Shown in pieces: positions 8,503 to 60,589 of a stretch of DNA of 64,000 nucleotides. Below the pieces are notes generated by a model, which worked only from the letters and a program-made list of their open reading frames with translations, did no database searches and was not told the DNA's origin. The first letter of the stretch is position 1, and every line of letters starts with the position of its first letter. A program made the position numbers and the translations under genes. This DNA is from Kutzneria viridogrisea (lineage in GTDB: Bacteria > Actinomycetota > Actinomycetes > Mycobacteriales > Pseudonocardiaceae). The stretch is taken from assembly GCA_014138725.1 (NCBI GenBank), contig JACJID010000002.1:1502001-1566000 (forward strand), written 5' to 3'.

Positions 8503-8555
8503 GCCATGAAAGTGCCGTTCACTGCGTTGAGCGCAGTGAACGGCACTTTCATGGC
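8503..8555. repeat. Long palindrome, family A2 (ATGAAAGTGCCGTT type), probable bidirectional terminator
   Basis: Perfect 24-bp arms (8503-8526, 8532-8555) with loop TTGAG. The outer arm is GCCATGAAAGTGCCGTT and the inner arm CACTGCG. It sits in the gap between the convergent MFS and DUF6114 genes, 1 bp after the MFS stop. No T-tract. Confidence 0.85.
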
Positions 8556-12032: not shown

Positions 12033-12320
12033 GCCATGAAGGTGCCCTTTGAGACGCTGAATGTCCCAAACGGCACCTTCATGGCACGGCGGCGCAGCCC
12101 CACGAACGGCCCCACAACGCCACAAAGGTGCCGTTCAAGACACTGAACGTCCCAAACGGCACCTTCACGACACCTGGTACCGAGCCGCCACCCCACCCCA
12201 ACACGTCACAAAGGTGCCGTTCAGGACGCTGAATGTCCCAAACGGCACCTTCATGGCACGGCCAAGACACGCTACGAAAGGACCATTCGCTGCGTCCAGC
12301 GCAGCGAAAGCCACCTTCGC
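12033..12320. repeat. Array of four family A palindromes
   Basis: Copies at about 12033-12085 (arms GCCATGAAGGTGCC/GGCACCTTCATGGC), 12121-12170, 12205-12255 (arms AAGGTGCCGTT/AACGGCACCTT) and 12275-12320 (inner arms TTCGCTGCG/CGCAGCGAA). The first three share the centre GCTGAATGTCCCAAA or a near copy and are imperfect inside. The fourth looks like a hybrid of subfamilies A1 and A2. The array fills most of the 371-bp gap between the convergent zinc-peptidase and thioredoxin genes. I see no gene there. Confidence 0.8.
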
Positions 12321-17883: not shown

Positions 17884-17936
17884 GCCATGAAAGTGCCGTT
17901 CCTGGCGTTGAACGCCAGGAACGGCACTTTCATGGC
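17884..17936. repeat. Long palindrome, family A2, probable bidirectional terminator
   Basis: Perfect 26-bp arms (17884-17909, 17911-17936) around one G. Outer arm GCCATGAAAGTGCCGTT, inner arm CCTGGCGTT. It fills the gap between the convergent sulfatase and DUF3817 genes. Confidence 0.85.
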
Positions 17937-21557: not shown

Positions 21558-21665
21558 GCGTGTCGGCGCTTCACGCACCGCGTGTCGGCGCTTCCGGTGC
21601 GTCGTGTCCGTCCAACACACCGCACGGGGACGTCCGACACGCGGTACCGGAAGCGCCGACACGCG
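21558..21665. repeat. Compound inverted repeat, GTGTCGGCGCTTC type (family C)
   Basis: Perfect 20-bp arms at 21579-21598 and 21646-21665 (CGCGTGTCGGCGCTTCCGGT and complement) flank 47 bp with a further imperfect dyad (GTGTCCG/CGGACAC-like). An extra direct copy of GTGTCGGCGCTTC starts at 21560. It lies between the GH92 end and the ABC ATPase start. The 300-bp gap holds no gene. Probably a dispersed intergenic repeat. Confidence 0.65.
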
Positions 21666-32202: not shown

Positions 32203-32259
32203 GTGTCATGAAAGTGCCGTTGCTTGCGTTGAACGCAAGCAACGGCACTTTCATGACAC
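32203..32259. repeat. Long palindrome, family A2, overlapping a stop codon
   Basis: Perfect 28-bp arms (32203-32230, 32232-32259) around one G. Outer GTGTCATGAAAGTGCCGTT, inner GCTTGCGTT. It lies 3 bp after the GH35 stop. Its right arm contains the TGA (32253-32251) of the convergent hydrolase gene. Confidence 0.85.
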
Positions 32260-36875: not shown

Positions 36876-38723
36876 GTGCCACTGTCCTTCGACACCACCG
36901 GATTCCGCCAGCACGACCAGACGCACTGGCTGCACCCGGGCACCGGCGACCAGGTCAGCCTGAACTACTTCGACCTCGTGCCGGACCTGCCCAGATCGCT
37001 GTCGGACCTGCCCGGGCTGCGCCAGGACCTGACCGGCTTCACCGCCGAGTCCGGCTGCCTGATCGAGGCGCACGTGGTGCAGTTGCAGGGCGTTCCCGCG
37101 CTGCTGCAAATCGTCAAGATCCCGCGACCCGGGCAGCAGCACGGCCAGGTGTTCATCGCCGCGTTCACCGTGCCGAAGGCGACGTGCAGCGCCGTGTTGC
37201 GCATCCAGTGCGAGGAGACCGGCACCACCGGAGTGCGCGAGGCCGTGCTGATGGCCGAACTCGGTCCCCAGAACTGGTTCCGCGCCCACCCGTACGCCCC
37301 GAACGTGATCAGCAAGCTGCCGTACCACGCGGGCGACGACATGCACTGGGACCCGCGCTTCCCACAGCACCCGCTGAGCCGGGCGCGCGCCTGGGTACAC
37401 CACGTGGTGCGCACCGCCCAGGTGGACCCGCGCTTCGCCGCCCTGCCGCCATTCCCCGGACCGGGCCCCGTCGGCCCGGCGCCGGGTTCGGTACCGGGTT
37501 CGGCGCCGCCACACGCGCCCGCTGGTGGGGCGCAAGCTGCTGTGCCGGTTCCGCAACCCGGTTCGCCCGCTGCCCAGCCGCCCACTGCTGGGCCGCAAGC
37601 TGCTGTGCCGCCCGCTGGTGGGGCAGCCCCCGGTGTGCCGCCACACGCGCCCGCCGCTGGAGCGCCTGCTGGTGGGCCAGTTCCGCAGCTCGGTTCGCCC
37701 GCTGCCCAGCCGCCCGCCGCCGGGGCACCTGCCGCCGCGTCGCTGCCGCAACCCGGTGCACCCACCGCTGCGGCAGCCCCCGGCGTGCCGCCTGGGCCGC
37801 CGCTCGGTGCACCGCCGTTCGGTACGCAACCCGCTGCCGCACAACCCGGCGCGCCCACCGCCCAGCCGCCCGCCGCTGGGGCGCAAGCTGCTGTGCCGCC
37901 CGCCGCCGGACCGCTGCCCGATTCGCCCGCTCCCGCGCCACTCGGCACGCAACCCGCTGCGGCACAAGCGGTCCCGCAGCCCAACCCGGTTCCGCAACCC
38001 GACGCGGCACCGTCCGTGCCGCCGCAACCCGTTGCGCCGCAACCAGGTGTGCCGCAGCTGCCCGGTGCGGGCTCACGCATGCACTCGCTGGTGACCGGCC
38101 TGCCGATCGGCGGCTACCTGCCGATCTGGCTGAGCAACCAGGACGTGGGCTACCTGCGTCTGGTCGATCCCGAGGCGGCACTGGCCCTGTTCGGCGCGGG
38201 CGAGGTGGGCCGCGCCGACCTGAACGGCGGCTGGGTGCGCGAGACGGTCATGTACGAGTGGGGCAGCAACACGGTCTTCCTGCCCGGCCGGTTCCGCGGC
38301 GAGAGCGGCGGCATCGAGGCGAAGATGCTCGAAGTCGCACCGGCCAAGCCGGAGGAGGCCAAACAGGCGGCGACGCCCGAGGCGGTGCTGGCGGCGTTCC
38401 GCTGGCTGGGCGGCGTGGCGCTGGCGGCCACCCGTCGCGGCGAGTCGGTCGCGCTGGTGCCCGGCGGGGTGCAGATGTGGGGCCGCCCCTCGGTGGTGAT
38501 CAAGGTCGCGGCGGGCAAGTCTCTGGTCTGCGCCGCGCCGGTCCCGGTCGGCGCCCCGATCTGGAGCGAGCAGATCCCGCCCGGGCCCGAGCCGGAGGAG
38601 CTGTGGCTGGACGGGGAGGCCACCGAGGAGATCATCCGGGCGAGTGGTCTGCTGGCGATGTACGCCAGCCAGACCTGGACCGTGCACCCCACCGAGTTGG
38701 CGCTCTCCTTCAGCACGTCATGA
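36876..38723 (+). CDS. Hypothetical protein with long Pro/Ala-rich repeat linker
   Basis: 615 residues, not recognised. An N-terminal globular domain (about 1-195; THWLHPGTGDQVSLNYFDLV, AVLMAELGPQNWFRAHPYAP) and a C-terminal one (about 400-615; TGLPIGGYLPIWLSNQDVGY, LPGRFRGESGGIEAKMLEVA) are joined by about 200 residues of imperfect repeats such as GSPAAQPPTAGPQAAVPPA. No signal peptide or membrane segment. GTG 36876 lies 24 bp after mce. The repeat DNA (about 37470-38060) leaves several frames open; this frame is chosen because both end domains lie in it. The stop TGA sits inside a palindrome. Possibly a scaffold or secretion-linked protein, but that is a guess. Confidence 0.75.
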   Translation: MPLSFDTTGFRQHDQTHWLHPGTGDQVSLNYFDLVPDLPRSLSDLPGLRQDLTGFTAESGCLIEAHVVQLQGVPALLQIVKIPRPGQQHGQVFIAAFTVPKATCSAVLRIQCEETGTTGVREAVLMAELGPQNWFRAHPYAPNVISKLPYHAGDDMHWDPRFPQHPLSRARAWVHHVVRTAQVDPRFAALPPFPGPGPVGPAPGSVPGSAPPHAPAGGAQAAVPVPQPGSPAAQPPTAGPQAAVPPAGGAAPGVPPHAPAAGAPAGGPVPQLGSPAAQPPAAGAPAAASLPQPGAPTAAAAPGVPPGPPLGAPPFGTQPAAAQPGAPTAQPPAAGAQAAVPPAAGPLPDSPAPAPLGTQPAAAQAVPQPNPVPQPDAAPSVPPQPVAPQPGVPQLPGAGSRMHSLVTGLPIGGYLPIWLSNQDVGYLRLVDPEAALALFGAGEVGRADLNGGWVRETVMYEWGSNTVFLPGRFRGESGGIEAKMLEVAPAKPEEAKQAATPEAVLAAFRWLGGVALAATRRGESVALVPGGVQMWGRPSVVIKVAAGKSLVCAAPVPVGAPIWSEQIPPGPEPEELWLDGEATEEIIRASGLLAMYASQTWTVHPTELALSFSTS

Positions 38724-38769
38724 AAGTGCCGTATGCGACATCTGATGTCGCATACGGCACTTTCATGAC
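38717..38769. repeat. Long palindrome, family A2, supplying both flanking stop codons
   Basis: Perfect 26-bp arms (38717-38742, 38744-38769) around one T. Outer GTCATGAAAGTGCCGTAT, inner GCGACATC. TGA at 38721-38723 ends the plus-strand gene; TGA at 38765-38763 ends the minus-strand lacI-type gene. Confidence 0.88.
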
Positions 38770-41170: not shown

Positions 41171-42071
41171 ACGCGGCAGGGTCAGCGGCAAGGCGCTGCC
41201 CTACCTGTTCCTGCTGCCCGCACTGCTGCTGGAACTGCTCGTGCACGTGCTGCCGATGCTGGTCGGCGTGGGCATGAGCCTACTCAAGCTGACCCAGTTC
41301 TTCCTGCGCAACTGGTCGGCGGCCCCCTTCGCCGGGCTGTCGAACTACACCGTGGCGCTGGACTTCAACGGCGCGGTCGGCGGCGCGCTGCTGCACTCCT
41401 TCGCCGTCACCCTGGCGTTCACGGTGCTGGTGGTCGCCGGGTCCTGGCTGCTCGGGTTCACCGCCGCCTTCCTGGTCCAGGGCCAGCGCCGAGGCCGCGG
41501 CCTGCTGCGCACCCTGTTCCTCGTGCCCTACGCCCTGCCCGCGTACGCCGCCGTGATCACCTGGAGCTTCCTGTTCCAGCGGGACACCGGCCTGGTCAAC
41601 GGGGTGCTCGCCGACCTGCACCTGGTGGGCGCCGGGGACAGGCCGTTCTGGTTGCTCGGCGGCAACAGCTTCCTCGCGGTGCTGGTCGTCGCGCTGTGGC
41701 GCACCTGGCCGTTCGCCTTCCTGGTGCTGACCTCTGGCATGCAGGCAATCCCGCACGACCTGTACGAGGCCGCGGCCCTGGACGGCGCCACGATGCGCCA
41801 GCAGGTGCGCCGCGTGATGCTGCCACTGCTGCGCCCGGTCAACCAGGTGCTGCTCGTCGTGCTGTTCCTGTGGACCTTCAACGACTTCAACACCCCGTAC
41901 GTACTGTTCGGCGCTGGGGCGCCCGCCGAGGCGGACCTGCTGTCCGTGCACATCTACCAGAACTCGTTCCTCACCTGGAACTTCGGACTGGGCTCGGCGA
42001 TGTCGGTGCTGCTGCTGGTCTTCCTGTCCCTGGCCACCGGTCTGTACCTGAGGAGCCGCCGTGTTCGGTGA
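41163..42071 (+). CDS. Sugar ABC importer permease, MalF type
   Basis: 302 residues with six membrane segments (LPYLFLLPALLLELLVHVLP and others). The ATPase-docking EAA loop is DLYEAAALDGATMRQQVRRVMLP with the usual EAA-like motif. GTG 41163 is chosen: it overlaps the SBP stop by 8 bp and gives a short cytosolic N-terminus; the frame is open further upstream inside the SBP gene. Confidence 0.9.
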   Translation: MAERGRVSGKALPYLFLLPALLLELLVHVLPMLVGVGMSLLKLTQFFLRNWSAAPFAGLSNYTVALDFNGAVGGALLHSFAVTLAFTVLVVAGSWLLGFTAAFLVQGQRRGRGLLRTLFLVPYALPAYAAVITWSFLFQRDTGLVNGVLADLHLVGAGDRPFWLLGGNSFLAVLVVALWRTWPFAFLVLTSGMQAIPHDLYEAAALDGATMRQQVRRVMLPLLRPVNQVLLVVLFLWTFNDFNTPYVLFGAGAPAEADLLSVHIYQNSFLTWNFGLGSAMSVLLLVFLSLATGLYLRSRRVR

Positions 42072-42903
42072 ACCGCACTGGTTCCGCTGGGTCCGCCGGG
42101 CCGGTCTGGCGGTGTTCGCGCTGATCGTGCTGGTGCCCCTGTGGGTCATGATCACCTCGGCCCTCAAGCCGCTGCGGGACGTGCAGGCGCAGTTCCGCTG
42201 GCTGCCCACCGAGTGGACGCTGAGCCCGTTCGTGGACATCTGGAGCACGATCCCGCTCGGCCGGTACTTCGTGAACAGCCTCGTCGTGGCGCTGGGCGCC
42301 ACCCTGCTGTCCCTGCTCGTGGCCGTGTCCGCCGCCTACGCCATCAGCCGGTACCGGTTCCGGGGCAGGCGGCTGTTCTCGCTGGCGATCCTGTCCACGC
42401 AGATGTTCCCCGGCATCCTGTTCCTGCTGCCGCTGTTCCTGATCTACGTGAACATCGCGCAGACCACCGGCATCGTGCTGGTCGGCACCCTGCCCGGGTT
42501 GGTCATCACCTACCTGACGTTCTCGCTGCCGTTCTCGGTGTGGATGCTCGTCGGCTACTTCGAGTCGATCCCCCGCGAACTGGACGAGGCCGCGCTGGTC
42601 GACGGCACCGGCCCGCTCGGCGCCCTGCTCCGCGTGGTCGTGCCCGCCGCGCTGCCCGGCATCGTCGCCGTCGCCGTCTACGCGTTCATGACGGCCTGGG
42701 GCGAGGTGCTGTTCGCCTCCGTGCTGACCAGCGACTCGACCCGCACCCTCGCGATCGGGCTGCCCGCCTACTCCACCCAGTCCGGGGTCTACTGGAACCA
42801 GGTCATGGCGGCCGGGCTCGTCGTGAGCGTGCCCGTGGTCGCGGGCTTCCTGCTGTTGCAGCGCTACCTCGTCCAGGGCCTGACCAGCGGCGCCGTCAAA
42901 TAG
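42061..42903 (+). CDS. Sugar ABC importer permease, MalG type
   Basis: 280 residues with six membrane segments. EAA loop: PRELDEAALVDGTGPLGALL. Conserved SRYRFRGRRLFSLAIL and MFPGILFLLPLFLIYVNIA. GTG 42061 overlaps the partner permease by 11 bp. No ATP-binding gene follows, so the transporter probably borrows a shared MsiK-type ATPase, as known for many actinobacterial sugar importers. Confidence 0.92.
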   Translation: MFGEPHWFRWVRRAGLAVFALIVLVPLWVMITSALKPLRDVQAQFRWLPTEWTLSPFVDIWSTIPLGRYFVNSLVVALGATLLSLLVAVSAAYAISRYRFRGRRLFSLAILSTQMFPGILFLLPLFLIYVNIAQTTGIVLVGTLPGLVITYLTFSLPFSVWMLVGYFESIPRELDEAALVDGTGPLGALLRVVVPAALPGIVAVAVYAFMTAWGEVLFASVLTSDSTRTLAIGLPAYSTQSGVYWNQVMAAGLVVSVPVVAGFLLLQRYLVQGLTSGAVK

Positions 42904-42959
42904 CCCGCGAGTCCCGCCCACCAGCACGCGAGTCCCGCTCAGGTGCGGCCGAGTCCCGC
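42904..42959. repeat. Three CGAGTCCCG repeat units (family B)
   Basis: The whole 56-bp gap between the convergent permease and TetR genes consists of GCGAGTCCCGC-type units at about 42907, 42927 and 42948. The same core forms the large array at 46921-47773. Confidence 0.75.
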
Positions 42960-43538
42960 TCAGTCGGCCCCGGCACCCAGCGCCAGGGCGTCCGCGATGA
43001 AGGCCAGCTCACGTTCCATGGCGGCACCGGACTGCTCCGACTCGGTGGTGTGCCGCGCCATCGAGTGCTGGTAGCTGACGGCGAGCGCGAGCAGCTCGGC
43101 CGCGCTGTCCACGTCGGCACGGCGCGACACCTGGGCGCGAGCCGCCACGATCACCGCCCGGATCAGGTCGACGAGCTGGCGGAACCGCGCCTGCAGCGCG
43201 TCGCGCACGGCGTTGTGCGTGTCGGCCTCGCGGTAGAGCAGGCTGCTCAGCAGCAGTGAGGAGTCCTGCCGCCGGTCCAGCTCGGTGAGCAGCTGCCGCA
43301 GGCTCTTGGCCACGTCCCCGGCCACGACGACCTCGTTCGGGTCGATGTGCTCGTCGGGCAGCCGGTCAACCAGGGCCACCAGCAGGTCCGGCTTGCGGCG
43401 GAAGTAGTAGTGCACCAGCCCCTTCGGCACGCGGGCTCTCTCCGCGATCTTCGAAGTGGGCGTGGCGTCGAACCCGTGTTCGGCGAACAGCTCCTCGGCC
43501 GCCGTGAGAATGCGCTCGCGTGCCGAGGCGTCTTCCAC
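42960..43538 (-). CDS. TetR-family regulator
   Basis: 192 residues. HTH: RILTAAEELFAEHGFDATPT, IAERARVPKGLVHYYFRRKP. The C-terminal ligand domain is helical (LLTELDRRQDSSLLLSSLLY). GTG 43538 has GGAGGG upstream. The SPW-protein gene is 63 bp upstream on the same strand. No operator recognised. Confidence 0.88.
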   Translation of the reverse strand: MEDASARERILTAAEELFAEHGFDATPTSKIAERARVPKGLVHYYFRRKPDLLVALVDRLPDEHIDPNEVVVAGDVAKSLRQLLTELDRRQDSSLLLSSLLYREADTHNAVRDALQARFRQLVDLIRAVIVAARAQVSRRADVDSAAELLALAVSYQHSMARHTTESEQSGAAMERELAFIADALALGAGAD

Positions 43539-45558: not shown

Positions 45559-46920
45559 ATGGCCCTTGGCAGTGACCGCGACCTCGTCCCGTTGGGAACC
45601 GGCTTCGACGTCGTCAAGCGCGGCTACGACCGGGCTCAGGTCGAAGACCACCTGGAACGGCTGGACTCCGACCTGAAGCTGCTGGCCGCCGACCGGGACG
45701 CGGCGGTGTCCCAGGCCAACGACCTGGCCAGGCAGCTGGAGAAGGCGCGCACCGAGATCGACGACCTGCGCGGGCAGGTCGACCGGCTCTCGCTGCCGCC
45801 GACCACGCTGGAGGGCCTGAGCGAGCGGCTGCAGCGCATGCTGCGGCTCGCCCAGGAGGAGGCCAACGAGACGAAGGCGCGCGCCGAGGCCGAGGCCGGG
45901 CACATCCGGGCCAAGGCCGAGGAGGAGGGCGCCGCGCTGCGCCAGCGCTACGAGAAGATGCTGCGCGAACTCGACCAGCGCCGTGCCGAGATGGAGGCCG
46001 AGCACCGCGGCGTGCTCGACACGGCGCGGGGCGAGGCCACGCGCATCACCACCGAGGCCGACCAGCGCCGTCAGCAGCTGGACAGCGAGGCCGAGCAGGC
46101 GCGCACCACCGCCGACGCGGACTCGCTGGCCCGCCGCACCCAGGTGGAGGAGGACTTCGAGATCGCCATGGCCTCGCGGCGCTCGGAGTCCATGCGCAAC
46201 CTCGCCGAGCAGGAGGCCAGCAGCAAGGCCGAGGCCGAACGACGCGTGCGGGAGGCCACCGAGGAGGCCAACCGGCGCAGGCACGACTCGATCGCGGAAG
46301 CCACTGCCCGCCTGCAGGAGGCCACCGACGAGGCGCACCGCCGCGTCACCGAGGCCACCACCGAGTCGGCCCGCCGGGTGGGTGAGGCCACGGCCCGGGT
46401 CGAGCAGCTGCGGCTGCTGCGCAACCAGATCGCCGAGCAGCTGCGCAACGCCCGCAGCGCGATCGTCGAGGCCGCGCCGCTGCTCAACCAGCTGCCCGAG
46501 GAGCGGCCCGCCGACATCGACGCGCCGACCCTGGAGGTCAAGGTCCCCCCGGCCACCGCGCCCCTGGCCCCGGCCCAGCCGCAAGCGCAGGCCCAGGGCC
46601 AGGGCCAGGCGGCGGCCCAGGCTCCGGCGCAGGGTCAGGGCCAGGCGGCGGCCCAGGCGCAGGCTCAAGCTCCGGCCCAAGGCCAGGCGGCGGCCCCCGC
46701 ACAGCCGCAGGACCAGGCGCGGGCAGCAGCTCAGGGCCAGGGCCAGCCGCAGGCCAAGCCCGCGCCCAAGCAGCCGGTGCGCCAACCCGCGACCCCCGGC
46801 AAGAAGCCCGAGCAGGCCGCCGCCAAGGACCCCGAGGCCACCAAGAAGATCCAGCGGCCCACCCCGCCCGAGAGCAAGCACCCGCTGGCCTCCGCACCGA
46901 GCAGGCCCACCAAGCGCTGA
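45559..46920 (+). CDS. DivIVA-like coiled-coil protein
   Basis: 453 residues. The N-terminus matches DivIVA/Wag31: FDVVKRGYDRAQVEDHLERL. A long coiled coil runs from about 30 to 320 (QRYEKMLRELDQRRAEMEAE, EATEEANRRRHDSIAEATAR). The last 120 residues are low-complexity Ala/Gln/Pro (QAQGQGQAAAQAPAQGQGQ) ending in basic KKIQRPTPPESKH. DivIVA proteins sense membrane curvature and organise polar growth or division. The coil here is longer than in Wag31, so a cytoskeletal relative such as FilP/Scy-type is also possible. ATG 45559. Confidence 0.85.
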   Translation: MALGSDRDLVPLGTGFDVVKRGYDRAQVEDHLERLDSDLKLLAADRDAAVSQANDLARQLEKARTEIDDLRGQVDRLSLPPTTLEGLSERLQRMLRLAQEEANETKARAEAEAGHIRAKAEEEGAALRQRYEKMLRELDQRRAEMEAEHRGVLDTARGEATRITTEADQRRQQLDSEAEQARTTADADSLARRTQVEEDFEIAMASRRSESMRNLAEQEASSKAEAERRVREATEEANRRRHDSIAEATARLQEATDEAHRRVTEATTESARRVGEATARVEQLRLLRNQIAEQLRNARSAIVEAAPLLNQLPEERPADIDAPTLEVKVPPATAPLAPAQPQAQAQGQGQAAAQAPAQGQGQAAAQAQAQAPAQGQAAAPAQPQDQARAAAQGQGQPQAKPAPKQPVRQPATPGKKPEQAAAKDPEATKKIQRPTPPESKHPLASAPSRPTKR

Positions 46921-47773
46921 CCCCACCCGCGAGTCCCGGTCACCGGTCGGCGAGTCCCGCCCACCAGTCGGCGAACCCCGACCGCAAGCACGCGAGTCCC
47001 GGCCGCCGACGCACGAGTCCCGCCCACCGGGACACGAGTCCCGTGCACCGGTCGGCGAACCCCGCTCACCGGCAACTGCGTCCCGCCCGCCGACGCGCGA
47101 CACACGCCCACCTGTGAGCTACCCGCCCACCAGTCGGCGAGTCCCGCCCACCGGGGCGCGAGTGCCGCGCACCAGTCAGCGAACACCGCCCACCGGCAGC
47201 CGCGTCCCGGCTCCCGTCGGCGAGTCCCGTCCTCCGGTGGGCGAGTCCCGCCCACAGGCACCCGAGTCCCGCGTGCCGGTCGGCAAACCCCGCTCAGAGG
47301 AGCACGAGTCCCGCCTACCGGTCCGCGAACCCCGACGCAAGCACGCGGGTCCCGGTCACCAGTCAACGAGTCCCGCCTGCGGGCACGCGACTCCCGGTCT
47401 CCTGCGCGCGAGTCCCGCCCACTAGGCACGAGTCCCGCTGACCAGTTGGCAAACCCCGCCCCGCCAGCAACCGAGTCCCGCCCGCAGGAGCACGAGTCCC
47501 GCGCACCGGCACGCGAGTCCCACCCAGGGGAGCACGGGTCCCACCCACAGGCACCCGAGTCCCGCGTGCCAGTCGGCAAACCCCGCTCAGAGGAGCACGA
47601 GTCCCGCCCACCGGTCGGCGAACCCCGCCCCACCGGCAGCCGCGTCCCGCCCAGCAACCCGCGACACACGCCCACCTGTGAGCTACCCGCGCACCGGTCA
47701 GGCCTCACGCCTGCCTGCGCGCCCCTCGCACGCCGGTCAGGGACTCACCGGCGAGTCCCGTCCGGGCGCAGCG
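46921..47773. repeat. Satellite-like array of about 40 units, 21-bp period, core CGAGTCCCG (family B)
   Basis: Degenerate CGAGTCCCG cores (also CGAACCCCG, CAAACCCCG, CGCGTCCCG) recur every 21 bp with 12-bp spacers often like CCCACCGGTCGG. It fills the whole gap between the convergent DivIVA-like and hydrolase genes. Larger duplications: 47097-47126 equals 47661-47690, and 47251-47315 matches 47544-47608 with one mismatch. Frames stay open because 21 is a multiple of three, but I see no gene. Confidence 0.85.
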
Positions 47774-48535
47774 CTAGCCGGGCAGCCAGTCCAGCACGGT
47801 CCGGGCGAACGCCGCCGGGTCCTCCAGCGGCGGCAGGTGCCCGCAGCCGGGCAGCACCGCGAACGTGGCTCCGGGCACCAGCCCGCCCACAACCTCGGGG
47901 CTCATCAGCGCGTCCTCGGCGCCGACCACGGCCAGCACCGGCACGTCCACGGCGGCGAGCAGTTCCGTGGAGTCGGGCCGGGCGGCCATCGCGCGCTGCG
48001 CCCAGGCCACTCCGCTCGGCGGTTGCGACTCGATCAACTCGCGCAGCGCCGACACCACCTCCGGGCGCTGCTCGGCCGTGGTGGTGCCGACCCCGTTGGG
48101 CAGGAACGAGTCCGCCAGCCAGCCCGCCGTGCCCTCCGACTCGGCCCGCTCCGCGACGGCGAGCCGCCCGGCACGCGCCTGCTCGGTGTCCGCCACCGCC
48201 TTGGTGTCAGCCAGCACCAGACCTGTCACCCTCTCCGCCGCACGGCGCAGCACGGCCATCGCCACGTAGCCGCCCATCGAACAGCCACCCAGGACGAACC
48301 GTTGCACACCAAGGCGATCCAGGTCGCGCAGCAGGTCCTCGGCCACCACGTCCAGGTCCGGCGTGGCCTGGCCGAGCGGGCTGCGGCCCAGCCCGCGCTG
48401 GTCCGGGGTGATCAGCCTGACCCGTTCCGCCAGCGGCCCGCGCACGCCGTCCCACATGCGCGAGTCCACCGGGTACGCGTGCAGCAGCACGAGCGGGATT
48501 CCCGAACCTTGTTCAGTGAGGTGCACGTCCCCCAT
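47774..48535 (-). CDS. Alpha/beta hydrolase
   Basis: 253 residues. PLVLLHAYPVDSRMWDGV, PDQRGLGRSPL, nucleophile elbow LGGCSMGGYVAMAVL, Asp in AVVGAEDALMSPE and His in PGCGHLPPLEDP. Similar to 3-oxoadipate enol-lactonase-type hydrolases, but the substrate is unproven. ATG 48535. Divergent from the kinase gene at 48601; convergent with the DivIVA-like gene across the family B array. Confidence 0.88.
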   Translation of the reverse strand: MGDVHLTEQGSGIPLVLLHAYPVDSRMWDGVRGPLAERVRLITPDQRGLGRSPLGQATPDLDVVAEDLLRDLDRLGVQRFVLGGCSMGGYVAMAVLRRAAERVTGLVLADTKAVADTEQARAGRLAVAERAESEGTAGWLADSFLPNGVGTTTAEQRPEVVSALRELIESQPPSGVAWAQRAMAARPDSTELLAAVDVPVLAVVGAEDALMSPEVVGGLVPGATFAVLPGCGHLPPLEDPAAFARTVLDWLPG

Positions 48536-48600
48536 CCTGCCCCCTCACCCCGACAAGTCACCGCCTTGACCGGCGGCGCAATTGCACGAGACTGTCATCC

Positions 48601-49173
48601 GTGATCCATCCCAGCGAGGGCGGCACGCCACTCATCGTGCTCACCGGGGCCTCGGCCGCGGGCAAGACGACGGTCGGTCGGCTGCTGGCCGACAGGTTCC
48701 CCCGGGGCGCGTTCGTCGAGGGCGACGCGGTGCGCACGATGGTCCGCACCGGACGGGTCGACATGACCCCGCGGGACACGACCCCGGAAGCGGTCCTCCA
48801 GCTGCAACTGCGGTACCGGCAGCTCGCGGCGCTGGCCGACTCCTTCCATGAGGCGGGCTTCGCCACCGTCGTGGAGGACGTGATCGTCGGCAGGCACCTC
48901 ACCGAGTTCGTGCGCTCGCTGCGGGCCAGCCCGCTGCACCTGGTGGTGCTGGTGCCCGACGAGGAGTCGATGGCCAGCCGTGAGTCGGCGCGGGACAAGT
49001 GCGCCTACGACGAGGTGTGGAGCATCGCGGCGCTCAACGCGGTGGTGCACAGGGAGACGCCGAGGCTGGGCCTGTGGCTGGACTCCAGCGGCCTGACCGC
49101 GGAGCAGACCGTGGACGAGGTGCTGTCGACCCTGCCGCAAAGTCTGTTGCGAGCGGGCGAAACCGGCTCCTAG
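48601..49173 (+). CDS. P-loop small-molecule kinase-like protein
   Basis: 190 residues. Walker A LTGASAAGKTTVGRLLADRF, then FVEGDAVRTMVRTG and an Arg-containing lid region (SRESARDKCAYDEVW). It resembles chloramphenicol phosphotransferase/zeta-toxin/AAA_33 kinases. No antitoxin gene is adjacent, so a toxin role is unlikely. GTG 48601. It is followed closely by two GNAT genes on the same strand and could share their transcript. Confidence 0.8.
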   Translation: MIHPSEGGTPLIVLTGASAAGKTTVGRLLADRFPRGAFVEGDAVRTMVRTGRVDMTPRDTTPEAVLQLQLRYRQLAALADSFHEAGFATVVEDVIVGRHLTEFVRSLRASPLHLVVLVPDEESMASRESARDKCAYDEVWSIAALNAVVHRETPRLGLWLDSSGLTAEQTVDEVLSTLPQSLLRAGETGS

Positions 49174-57984: not shown

Positions 57985-58989
57985 GTGAAGAGGATCATCC
58001 TCGCCATGACCGCGGCCGCGTTGCTGGTCGGTGCGACCGCGTGCGGCCAGGCGGCGACCGATGCCAAGTCCGAGGTGGCCCAGGGCGGCTCCGCGTTCCA
58101 GTCCGCCGGCGAGCGCACCGCGAAGTACGGCACCGACGCGCTGCCCGGCCAGTTCCCGCGCACGATCAAGCACGCGATGGGCGAGACCACGCTCAAGGCC
58201 AAGCCGGAGCGGGTGGTCGTGCTGGACGTGGGCGAACTGGACAACGTGGTGGCGCTGGGCGTGCAGCCGGTGGGCGTGGCCTACACCGAGGGCTCGCCGA
58301 CCATGCCCGGCTACATCGGCGCCAAGGGCGGCACCCCGACCAGCGTCGGCACGATCAACAGCCTGAACCTGGAGACGATCGCCAAGCTGAAGCCCGACCT
58401 GATCCTGGGCTCCAAGCTGCGCGCGGAGAAGTCCTACGAGAAGCTGTCCAAGATCGCGCCGACGGTGTTCTCGGAGCGACCCGGCTACACCTGGAAGGCC
58501 AACTTCCTGCTCAACTCCGCCGCGCTGGACCGCACCGACCAGGCCGACAAGCTGCTGGCCGACTACCAGTCGGAGGCCAAGGCGGTGGGCGAGGCGGTGC
58601 AGGCCAAGCTGGGCCGCAAGCCGACGATCTCCCCGCTGCGGTTCATGCCGAACATGACCCGGGTCTACGCGCGCAAGTCGTTCATCGGCACGATCCTGGC
58701 CGACACCGGGCTGCCCACCAACGCCTCGGGCCAGGTGGACGACCTGGCCGTGCAGGTGGGCGCGGAGCAGATCGACCGGGCCGACGCCGACTGGATCTTC
58801 GTCGGCAGCTACGGGGACCCGAGCAAGACCCAGCAGAACTCGTTCCAGACCAACCCGCTGTGGCAGACCCTGGGCGCGGTCAAGGCCGGTCACGCCAAGA
58901 CCGTGGCCGACGAGACCTGGTACCTGGGCCTGGGTGTGCTGGCCGCCAACCAGGTGCTGACCGAGCTCCGCGCCCAGCTCACCTCCTGA
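57985..58989 (+). CDS. Iron-siderophore-binding lipoprotein
   Basis: 334 residues from GTG 57985 (AAGGGG upstream; GTG 57970 is an alternative). Lipobox LLVGATAC. FecB/FepB-type fold: PERVVVLDVGELDNVVALGV, LNLETIAKLKPDLILGSKLR, KIAPTVFSE, GLGVLAANQVLTEL. It binds a ferric siderophore for ABC import; permease and ATPase genes are not adjacent. The iron box upstream supports iron control. Confidence 0.93.
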   Translation: MKRIILAMTAAALLVGATACGQAATDAKSEVAQGGSAFQSAGERTAKYGTDALPGQFPRTIKHAMGETTLKAKPERVVVLDVGELDNVVALGVQPVGVAYTEGSPTMPGYIGAKGGTPTSVGTINSLNLETIAKLKPDLILGSKLRAEKSYEKLSKIAPTVFSERPGYTWKANFLLNSAALDRTDQADKLLADYQSEAKAVGEAVQAKLGRKPTISPLRFMPNMTRVYARKSFIGTILADTGLPTNASGQVDDLAVQVGAEQIDRADADWIFVGSYGDPSKTQQNSFQTNPLWQTLGAVKAGHAKTVADETWYLGLGVLAANQVLTELRAQLTS

Positions 58990-58993
58990 ACCG

Positions 58994-59065
58994 GCGAGTC
59001 CCGCTCTCCCGCACGCGAGTCCCGCCCACCGGGCCGTGACTCACGCGCCCCAGAGCGGGACTCGC
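58994..59065. repeat. Family B units forming a hairpin between convergent genes
   Basis: GCGAGTCCCGCTCT (58994-59007) and AGAGCGGGACTCGC (59052-59065) are perfect 14-bp inverted arms; another direct CGAGTCCCG lies between them at about 59016. It starts 4 bp after the siderophore-protein stop and ends 6 bp before the aldehyde dehydrogenase stop. Here family B can also act as a terminator stem. Confidence 0.75.
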
Positions 59066-59071
59066 GGTGGG

Positions 59072-60589
59072 TCAGCGGCCGTAGCGGGCCTTGACGATGG
59101 CCATGAGCCTGCCGACGACACCGCCGCCCCGCGAGAACGACATCGGGTTGAGCACCGGCTTGAAGCGCTTGCGGGTGACCGACTGCACGCGGGTGAACTC
59201 GCGCAGCCCGTCCTCACCGTGGATGCGCCCGAACCCGGAGTCGCCGACCCCGCCGAAGGGCAGCGCGGGCACGGCCGCGAACGCGATCACGGAGTTGACC
59301 GCCACCATGCCGGTGCGCAGCCTGCGGGCCACCTGCTCCCCGCGCGACTTGGAGAACACGGTGCCGCCCAGCCCGTACTTGCCCGCGTTGGCCAGCCGCA
59401 CGGCCTCGTCCACGTCGCGCACCCGGTTCACGGTGACGGTCGGCCCGAAGGTCTCCTCGGTGATCGCCAGCGAGTCCTCGGGCACGTCGACCAGCACGAC
59501 CGGCTCCACGAAGGGCGGCCGCACCGACTCTGTGCCGCCGACCACCGCGCGCCCGCCCTTGTCCAGCGCGTCCTGCACGTGCGAGCGGATCACCTCAACC
59601 TGGGAGGGCATGGTGATCGGCCCGAAGTCCGCGGACGGCTGGCCGCCGGGCCGCAACTTGGCCGCCCGCTTGGTGATCTGCTCCACGAACTCCTCGGCCA
59701 CGTCCTCGACCACGTAGACCCGCTCCACGCCGATGCAGGTCTGGCCCGCGTTGGACATGGCGCCCCACAGCGCGGCGTCGGCCGCGGCGGCCACGTCGGC
59801 GTCGTAGTCCACGATCAGCACGTCCTTGCCGCCGCACTCCAGCAGCACCGGGGTCAGCGACTCGGCGCAGGAGGCCATCACGCGCTTGCCGGTGGCGGTG
59901 GAGCCGGTGAACGCGAGCTTGTCCACCCCCGAGCGGCACAGCGCGGCACCGGTCTCGCCGAAGCCGGTGACCACGCTGAGCACCGGGTGCTCGGGTACGA
60001 CCTCGGCCAGGGTGTCGGCCAGCCACACGCCGACGCCGGGGGTCAGCTCGGAGGGCTTGAAGACCACGGTGTTGCCCGCGGCCAGCGCGTAGGCGATGGA
60101 GCCCATCGGGGTGAAGATCGGGTAGTTCCACGGGCCGATCACGCCGACCACGCCCAGCGGGCGGTACTCCACGGTCGCGGCCTGGTTGAGCATGAGCAGC
60201 CCGGAGGCCACCCGGCGCCTGCGCAGCACCCGCTCGGCGTTGCGCGCCGCCCAGTGCAGGTGGTCGATGACCAGGGCCAGTTCCAGCTTGGCGTCGGCGT
60301 TGGGCTTGCCGGTCTCCGCGCTGACCAGGTTCGCGATCTCGTCCAGGCGTTTCACGATCAGCCTGCGCCAGGCGTCCAGCCGCTGCTTGCGGCCGTCGAA
60401 GCCCAGTTCGGCCCACCAGGTCGCGGCCCGGCGCGCGGTGGCCACCGCCTCGGTGACCTCCTGGGCGCTGTGCACCGGGTGGTGGGCGACCACCTCGCCG
60501 GTGCGGGGATCCAACGAGGCGAACCGCTTGGGATGCTCGTCCGATCCGGCCGCGCCCACCGCGCTGCTCTCCGGGGCTGTCTGAGTCAT
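59072..60589 (-). CDS. Aldehyde dehydrogenase (succinate-semialdehyde dehydrogenase-like)
   Basis: 505 residues. PLGVVGVIGPWNYPIFTPMG, FTGSTATGKRVM, general-base Glu in LLECGGKDVLIV, nucleophile Cys in SNAGQTCIGVERVY, EETFGPTV and PFGGVGDSGFGR. NAD(P)-dependent oxidation of an aldehyde. Close to the actinobacterial succinic-semialdehyde group with a C-terminal extension, but substrate is not certain. ATG 60589. Confidence 0.9.
   Translation of the reverse strand: MTQTAPESSAVGAAGSDEHPKRFASLDPRTGEVVAHHPVHSAQEVTEAVATARRAATWWAELGFDGRKQRLDAWRRLIVKRLDEIANLVSAETGKPNADAKLELALVIDHLHWAARNAERVLRRRRVASGLLMLNQAATVEYRPLGVVGVIGPWNYPIFTPMGSIAYALAAGNTVVFKPSELTPGVGVWLADTLAEVVPEHPVLSVVTGFGETGAALCRSGVDKLAFTGSTATGKRVMASCAESLTPVLLECGGKDVLIVDYDADVAAAADAALWGAMSNAGQTCIGVERVYVVEDVAEEFVEQITKRAAKLRPGGQPSADFGPITMPSQVEVIRSHVQDALDKGGRAVVGGTESVRPPFVEPVVLVDVPEDSLAITEETFGPTVTVNRVRDVDEAVRLANAGKYGLGGTVFSKSRGEQVARRLRTGMVAVNSVIAFAAVPALPFGGVGDSGFGRIHGEDGLREFTRVQSVTRKRFKPVLNPMSFSRGGGVVGRLMAIVKARYGR

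Follow-up and report, generated by a model that had tools for sequence, protein, structure and literature searches.

A gene-end repeat family with a 9-bp core and a fixed spacing in Kutzneria, and its possible role in ending convergent transcription

An 853-bp array of 21-bp units fills the gap between two convergent genes of a Kutzneria strain and belongs to a dispersed repeat, here called family B, that lies mostly at the 3' ends of genes. Judging from sequence and placement, we tentatively read family B as a gene-3'-end element that terminates or insulates transcription, chiefly where genes converge, and hold that reading with somewhat less than even confidence. The placement, the orientation bias, the conservation of core and spacing, the inverted repeats at two homologous junctions and the hairpin potential of the dyads were all observed. 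Family B probably marks gene ends in a new way and does not organise the chromosome.

Family B in the analysed window

The window is the whole stretch of DNA analysed (64 kb). G000 denotes the genome of the source strain (Kutzneria, 10.25 Mb), G005 that of a sister species and G014 that of a member of another genus. The three family B sites of the window and the genes that border them are as follows.

42061..42903, + strand: gene for an ABC-transporter permease, which runs up to the 42904 array
42904..42959, + strand: three exact family B units (42908, 42929, 42950) that take up a 56-bp convergent gap
42960..43538, - strand: gene for a TetR-family regulator, convergent on the 42904 array
45559..46920, + strand: gene for a DivIVA-like coiled-coil protein, upstream of the large array (PF05103, exactly at the cut-off)
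46921..47773, + strand: family B array, about 38 units in a 21-bp register, with 18 exact CGAGTCCCG cores
47774..48535, - strand: alpha/beta hydrolase gene (PF12697), convergent on the large array
57985..58989, + strand: periplasmic-binding-protein gene ending at the 58990 dyad
58990..59071, no single strand: family B dyad with + cores at 58995 and 59016 and a - core at 59056, filling an 82-bp convergent gap
59072..60589, - strand: gene for an aldehyde dehydrogenase, converging on the 58990 dyad

The large array takes up its convergent gap completely, with the stop codon of the upstream gene at 46918-46920 and that of the opposing gene at 47774, which bears out the position between convergent genes given in the initial annotation. 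All 18 exact CGAGTCCCG cores are on the + strand; under a first-order Markov model fitted to that stretch the mean was 0.075 and the maximum 2 in 2000. Autocorrelation at lag 21 was 0.538, compared with 0.331 +/- 0.017. Chance origin of the cores and of the 21-bp periodicity is excluded. A register walk of 40 steps, 31 of 39 of them exactly 21, found 34 units with at most two and 37 with at most three mismatches to CGAGTCCCG or CGAACCCCG, and a variant, CGAACCCCG/CAAACCCCG, recurs inside the array. By this count there are about 37-39 units, and the first estimate of about 40 degenerate units was a fair one.

The array does not look translated. Mean codon log-odds were -0.23 to -0.37 in all six of its frames, as against +0.47 and +0.43 for the flanking genes, which rules out a coding repeat. 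Three other identities were rejected: a catalogued structured RNA, because the whole 64-kb window had no Rfam match above the gathering score; a tRNA-derived repeat, because ARAGORN found no tRNA in the array, although we take the CGAGTCCCG core to resemble the T-arm of tRNAs; and, on anatomy alone, a CRISPR, the spacers being 12 bp.

The two smaller sites had also been picked out initially, as three copies at 42904-42959 and a hairpin at 58994-59065. Both are real and both lie in convergent gaps. The copies occupy 42908-42958, the first core 4 nt past a stop codon, and the dyad spans 58995-59064, its gap (58990-59071) folding into a long hairpin with a z of -5.54.

The DivIVA-like protein encoded upstream of the large array has a P/Q/A-rich C-terminal repeat, which at window 46562-46770 is a tandem repeat with periods of 6, 24, 30, 36 and 42, and frame lengths among its relatives vary widely. 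Its best matches in named genomes were in Kutzneria sp. CA-103260 (76%, best segment) and a Kutzneria MAG (80%, 315 residues). DivIVA-like genes in records titled Rhodococcus rhodnii NRRL B-16535 (L115) and Nocardia sp. NRRL S-836 (L124) match the query about as closely as the genes of Kibdelosporangium and Lentzea do, and the two strains are possibly misnamed.

Copy number, conservation and spacing across genomes

Exact core pairs 10-14 bp apart numbered 340 and 354 on the two strands of G000, 694 together, and the reversed pattern 0. The other six Kutzneria genomes had 0-11 such pairs. At least one was present in 24 of 200 genomes of the taxonomic family (G000 included) and in 10 of 46 genera, with 176 genomes lacking any; G014 had 107 and G106 had 34. 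An order-wide draw of 249 genomes yielded 8 with a match, and outside the taxonomic family 3 of 207 genomes had 1-2 pairs each, two of which look like short-period repeats. The 11-base word GCGAGTCCCGC outnumbered its reversed form 724 to 17 in G000, 160 to 16 in G002, 266 to 14 in G014 and 96 to 26 in G020, and over much of the rest of the 120 genomes examined its count was close to that of the control or modestly higher.

Enriched intergenic 9-mers were ranked by copy number, a list built without reference to the array finding. CGAGTCCCG came first in G000 (225 copies), tied at the top with an overlapping word in G005 (21 copies) and stood fourth in G014 (42 copies), behind the overlapping words GAGTCCCGC, AGTCCCGCG and GTCCCGCGC; family B words led the ranking in all 3 sampled genomes, which represent two genera.

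Contig C1 of G000 has no exact pair at 462 kb-1.30 Mb (838 kb) or at 1.58-2.06 Mb. Cores per 20 kb did not track the number of convergent gaps (Spearman 0.09). Six 20-kb samples from C1:600-1120 kb (L061-L066) were nearly devoid of family B and of two further families, A and C, described below, and had a slightly lower GC content (0.67-0.70). Four of these six held none of the words of the three families, compared with 14 of 83 samples overall, a difference noticed post hoc. Possibly this is an accessory region that the elements have yet to colonise.

Conservation was scored in 68 distinct middle units of G000, picked solely for exact cores in both neighbouring units. Core positions were 90-99% conserved and 47 of the 68 units were exact at all nine, while nine of the twelve spacer positions stood at 44-60% and the other three (unit positions 12, 17 and 21) at 78-94%. 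Selecting units in this way, with exact cores 42 bp apart, fixes their summed length, a condition from which the spacing counts are free: among G000 core pairs spaced 20-23 bp, 126 of 130 were exactly 21 bp apart, and wider spacings were mostly multiples of 21. The proposed period of two helical turns is thereby supported within G000. Spacers lying between two exact cores were distinct in 117 of 126 cases, and recent simple tandem duplication of whole units was rejected on that count. We read the retention of core and length beside a varying spacer sequence as constraint on a repeated site at a fixed distance, to which unit copying contributes.

The period differs elsewhere. All 21 near pairs in G014 were spaced 22, the spacing in genus g4 was mostly 22 and that in G020 was 19 or 21, with a range of 19-23 across lineages; the exact phase is fixed per lineage and is not universal. 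The idea that a bound protein would meet every core on the same face of the DNA would suit G000, at 21 bp, and is general only in part, since two further genera mostly space the core at 22 bp and a third at 19-21.

Family B could instead be a neutral satellite: slippage or unequal recombination would have duplicated a terminator arm, gene conversion would have spread it, and the arrays, having no function, would be tolerated in promoter-free convergent gaps. Segments are indeed duplicated within the 853-bp array (for example, 47251-47315 is copied at offset 293 and 47096-47126 at offset 564), the distribution of the family is species-specific, RNA structure at B ends is weak, and distant arrays share spacers more often than in a column-shuffled null (7 identical pairs versus 1.5, and 44 within one mismatch versus 19.9). 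Yet decay should not leave such well-kept cores beside spacer positions at about 50%; the near-invariant 21-bp spacing would be unexpected given an ordinary indel rate, which the spacing argument presupposes; the diversity of spacers argues against recent whole-unit copying; and the same core is in excess and arrayed in other genera. We regard a neutral origin as rather unlikely.

Placement at gene ends, folding and turnover between species

Outside coding DNA the core is enriched: of its 247 copies in 1.264 Mb of G000, 225 lay in gene gaps, which make up about 11% of the sequence, compared with 1 of 16 copies of the reversed 9-mer. About 16% of G000 was read as sequence. In a G000 sample that is not random (the window, its flanks, L067 and L068, chosen for known arrays, and C1:1-400000) and in gap classes that contain errors because genes were called by a codon-usage script, cores occupied 22 of 150 convergent, 20 of 479 tandem and 3 of 189 divergent gaps (Fisher 3.8e-5 and 3.6e-6).

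Cores also tend to follow the direction of the gene they adjoin. Where a gene end faced an occupied gap, the nearest core was in sense at 39 of 64 ends in G000, 13 of 19 in G005 and 16 of 20 in G014 (some G014 stretches were picked around known array places), and antisense at 35 of 103 ends in the three genomes. In G000 the distance past the stop codon was 3-23 nt for 29 of the 39 sense cores (of 64 ends) and 1-22 nt for 12 of the 25 antisense cores. Among the 27 tandem gaps occupied in the three genomes, 22 had their first core at most 46 nt from the upstream stop, 19 had it in sense, and 26 had their last core at least 35 bp ahead of the next start. Where convergent gaps held both orientations, the + block lay left of the - block in 8 of 11 in G000, 4 of 5 in G005 and 5 of 6 in G014. 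When cores with at most one mismatch were counted, a single orientation was seen in 11 of the 22 convergent B gaps of G000, in 3 of 8 in G005 and in 2 of 8 in G014. The initial annotation was right about convergent junctions and overlooked that the cores mostly follow the orientation of the upstream gene and often start just past its stop codon. Arrays also lie in gaps at eight loci from four further genera and at three genus g4 loci, with stop-codon distance and core orientation more variable; one of them, L096, spans a short called frame.

A DNA-uptake-type signal, similar to the DUS or USS and forming terminators as inverted pairs, would likewise be a 9-bp word with hundreds of copies and inverted pairs at gene ends, and the genomic excess of GCGAGTCCCGC in G000 is of the kind such signals have. 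Uptake signals of Neisseria and Pasteurellaceae frequently form terminator hairpins, and these resemble family B as short conserved words in many copies with inverted terminator pairs (PMC1852404). Family B differs in its fixed-spacing tandem arrays, its location mostly outside genes and its occurrence in a family of Actinomycetes. Most copies are tandem and seldom paired, only 22 of 247 lie in coding DNA or at sample edges, and through much of the taxonomic family the 11-base word occurs at close to its control count; an uptake signal is barely credible here.

A role in nucleoid structure or segregation, the other function initially proposed, would suit the two-turn period and a spread over many contigs. 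It found no support: copies are biased to 3' ends and rare in divergent gaps (3/189), exact pairs fall near-equally on the two strands (340/354), none occurs in C1 at 462 kb-1.30 Mb, 176 of 200 genomes of the taxonomic family have no exact pair, and the six other genomes of the genus have few or none. We consider such a role very improbable.

Other repeats share the slot. Family A, unrelated in sequence and said at the outset to fill the same niche, does so, with 20 convergent, 18 tandem and 0 divergent gaps occupied in the G000 sample. It has no two-turn period there, and convergent gaps with family A alone had a stem of at least 15 bp in 15 of 21 cases. A third family, C, was found in G000 with a core, CGTGTCGG, unrelated to that of B; its near pairs were exactly 22 bp apart in 29 of 29 cases, and together with the longer word CGCGTGTCGG it occupied 12 convergent, 7 tandem and 1 divergent gap. 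Among gaps of at least 20 bp, A, B and C jointly occupied 47 convergent, 40 tandem and 3 divergent ones (P = 4e-11 against all 150 convergent and 479 tandem gaps).

In the window, family A hairpins (TGAA[AG]GTGCC ... GGCAC[CT]TTCA) lie at 8507-8551, 12037-12253, 17888-17932, 32209-32253 and 38721-38765, and a family C dyad lies at 21559-21663, with CGTGTCGG units 22 bp apart, two + then two -. The G014 sample (L222-L237) contains yet another repeat, with words such as CGGGGAATC and CGCAATGGA in about 22-25 copies; several of its words are confined to a single tandem gap.

The outer arms of family B dyads matched beyond the core in G005 and sisters (0.667 versus 0.471 expected, n=15, P 0.0004), more weakly in G000 (0.574 versus 0.447, n=9, P 0.013), and showed no match in G014 (0.472 versus 0.609, n=6). 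Five loci were dropped from this comparison: L078, L082 and L084, each overlapping a kept locus; L079, which overlaps the kept L075, a short-period repeat; and L089, which overlaps the G005 stretch used. Short-loop stems of at least 12 bp occurred in 12 of 22 convergent B gaps and 62 of 102 others in G000 (44 of 75 in gaps without A, B or C), in 6 of 8 versus 26 of 40 in G005 and in 5 of 8 versus 2 of 14 in G014. B gaps are thus about as stem-rich as other G000 convergent gaps, which fits a hairpin role.

Fold strength and U-tracts give a different picture. In G000 the median z, from 60 mononucleotide shuffles, was -1.44 for B ends (n=44) and -3.46 for other convergent ends (n=204), and two 300-nt pieces of the 853-bp array gave -2.57 (sense) and -1.65 (antisense). 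A U-tract (at least 5 T in 8 nt) followed 1 of 44 B ends and 17 of 204 others in G000, 0 of 16 and 5 of 28 in G014, and 5 of 16 and 18 of 80 in G005. A scan of 46000-48700 for U-tract terminators returned one site, within the upstream gene. With half of the convergent B gaps in one orientation, weak folds and rare U-tracts, a hairpin would not be the whole mechanism. Within the termination reading, the dyads would act by hairpin.

Weakly folded, C-rich RNA after a stop codon could also serve as a loading site bound by Rho. Read in core direction, the 853-bp array has a C-G skew of +0.22, and C exceeds G in 21 of 27 G000 arrays with at least 3 exact cores and in 6 of 6 G014 arrays; the weak folding of B ends in G000 points the same way. 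As a class, B ends are not clearly C-skewed, with median skews, against other 3' ends, of 0.041 versus 0.009 in G000 (P 0.10), 0.000 versus 0.013 in G005 (P 0.86) and 0.090 versus 0.011 in G014 (P 0.09), and Rho was therefore kept as a minor rival. It leaves the conserved 9-bp core and the fixed period unexplained, and we rate it as very improbable.

On the model of TTF-I at mammalian rDNA, the arrays may be homotypic binding-site arrays, with a putative protein on each core, on nearly the same helix face, forming a direction-dependent stop for RNA polymerase. The core is non-palindromic, common to several genera and mostly gene-oriented, spacer length is fixed though its sequence varies, many arrays keep to one orientation, and folding at B ends is weak. 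The unrelated core of C at exactly 22 bp in G000, and B itself at 22 bp in G014, also speak for it. Set against these are the differences in period among lineages (19-23), a period conservation that copying between units would also explain, and the antisense nearest core at 35 of 103 gene ends. We consider a bound array unlikely on balance, though a serious possibility.

Homologous junctions in sister species suggest that terminator families turn over within the genus Kutzneria. Between G000 and a 400-kb stretch of G005, 157 gene pairs are adjacent in both, 19 of them convergent. Seven of these 19 convergent gaps contained exact cores in G000; in G005 all of the same seven lacked them, and there one gap held a one-mismatch core and one was 0 bp long. 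One tandem pair had B in G000 only, and one convergent gap held B in G005 and family C in G000.

At the large-array junction the gap measured 56, 82, 52 and 76 bp in four other Kutzneria genomes, as against 853 bp in G000; G003 had no gap there, and neither junction gene found a match in G006. Five sister genomes had gaps of 41-151 bp at the 58990 junction. All 9 non-empty gaps at these two junctions, in five sister species, contained inverted repeats of 12-24 bp (at most 2 mismatches), with 0-4 of 200 shuffles reaching equal stems, and the CGAGTCCCG core was absent from all nine. At these two junctions, then, family B occupies the place that bidirectional hairpins of differing sequence have in the sister species. 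The sister species have convergent-junction hairpins of their own, some of them recurrent: GAACGGACCATTCC...GG.A.GGTCCGTTC in G002 and G004, and AAGGGGGCATTCCTGGCGTTGAACGCC... at two G005 convergent junctions.

Known systems and the proposed role

By analogy, family B would work most like a bidirectional terminator and partly like uptake-signal terminators, REP elements or TTF-I clusters. Bidirectional intrinsic (Rho-independent) terminators occupy the same slot, the B dyads fold strongly, and the sister species have inverted repeats at the two junctions; unlike such terminators, family B has a conserved core, tandem arrays, rare U-tracts and a single orientation in half of its convergent gaps. 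At the terminator boxes of mammalian rDNA, TTF-I acts in a direction-dependent manner. Termination is specified by TTF-I sites clustered downstream of the pre-rRNA region (PMC3772059). These resemble family B as a homotypic cluster of short sites past a gene and differ in belonging to a eukaryotic Pol I system.

REP or BIME-like mobile repeats spread by a transposase are likewise extragenic, near stop codons, present in many copies and found as inverted pairs, and the positions of family B differ between G000 and G005. A significant share of E. coli REPs had earlier been reported 1-20 nt from the nearest ORF end, and a newer count gives 446 of 4,072 within 15 nt (PMC12306157). REPs are described as 20-40-bp palindromes tagged GTAG or CGTC, with RAYT genes tied to the GTAG-tagged ones (PMC3733652). 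The B unit is non-palindromic: among 105 distinct units a perfect internal stem of at least 5 occurred in 8, compared with 7 in shuffles, and GTAG occurred in 1 and CGTC in 4. The RAYT-type transposase PF01797 had 0 matches in G000 and was found in 5 of 14 control genomes by the same search. REP/RAYT identity was rejected on these two counts, and a REP-like mobile origin in the broader sense is improbable. As the U-tract test for terminators and the palindrome and transposase tests for REPs all failed in G000, family B was filed under none of these systems.

The dispersed intergenic stem-loop families of Cozzuto et al. 2008, possibly acting at the RNA level, are hairpin families (PMC2267715), from which the B unit, a non-palindromic 21-mer, differs. 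In the Kutzneria albida genome paper, the passages in which 'repeat' or 'intergenic' occurs make no mention of such repeats (PMC4210621). Among the results examined from text searches of openly accessible literature, by the literal core and by convergent-gene repeats in bacteria, there was no description.

Termination or insulation at convergent gene ends, the latter also suggested in the initial annotation, is supported as the likeliest role. Counting against it are the antisense cores nearest to 35 of 103 gene ends, the looser tie to stop codons in other genera, the unmatched outer arms in G014, the weak folds, single orientations and rare U-tracts of many B gaps, and a core density that does not follow the number of convergent gaps. 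In the mechanism we propose, the conserved part is the 9-bp non-palindromic core CGAGTCCCG, placed mostly in sense, often a few nt past the stop codon. In G005 the element comes chiefly in dyads that give each convergent gene one core arm, and their transcript can form a hairpin usable both ways. In G000 the dyad arms may have grown into tandem arrays of 21-bp units, in which selection would have held the core and the spacing and much less of the spacer. The 853-bp array would be the extreme case, in a slot that an ordinary inverted repeat fills in four other Kutzneria species. One-orientation arrays would presumably still terminate, their repeated cores causing RNA polymerase to pause or stop, and family B would in this way have displaced hairpin terminators.

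A bolder version of the same scheme, which we think unlikely at present, is that oriented, helically phased arrays of 9-bp sites, bound by a putative sequence-specific factor, form polar terminators or insulators at 3' ends in a bacterial family, and that cores and periods (B at 21 bp, C at 22 bp) evolved in parallel, displacing hairpin terminators from species to species. Were a factor to bind the core, bacteria would have a sequence-specific terminator.

To our knowledge, how convergent transcripts end in high-GC actinomycetes is not well settled. The large-array junction offers a natural experiment, the same two genes being split by an inverted-repeat gap of 52-82 bp in four sister species or by an 853-bp array in G000, so that hairpin and array termination are directly comparable. 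Within one genus, species differ in their gene-end elements, and one such element has turned into a strictly spaced array that keeps mainly its core and spacing.
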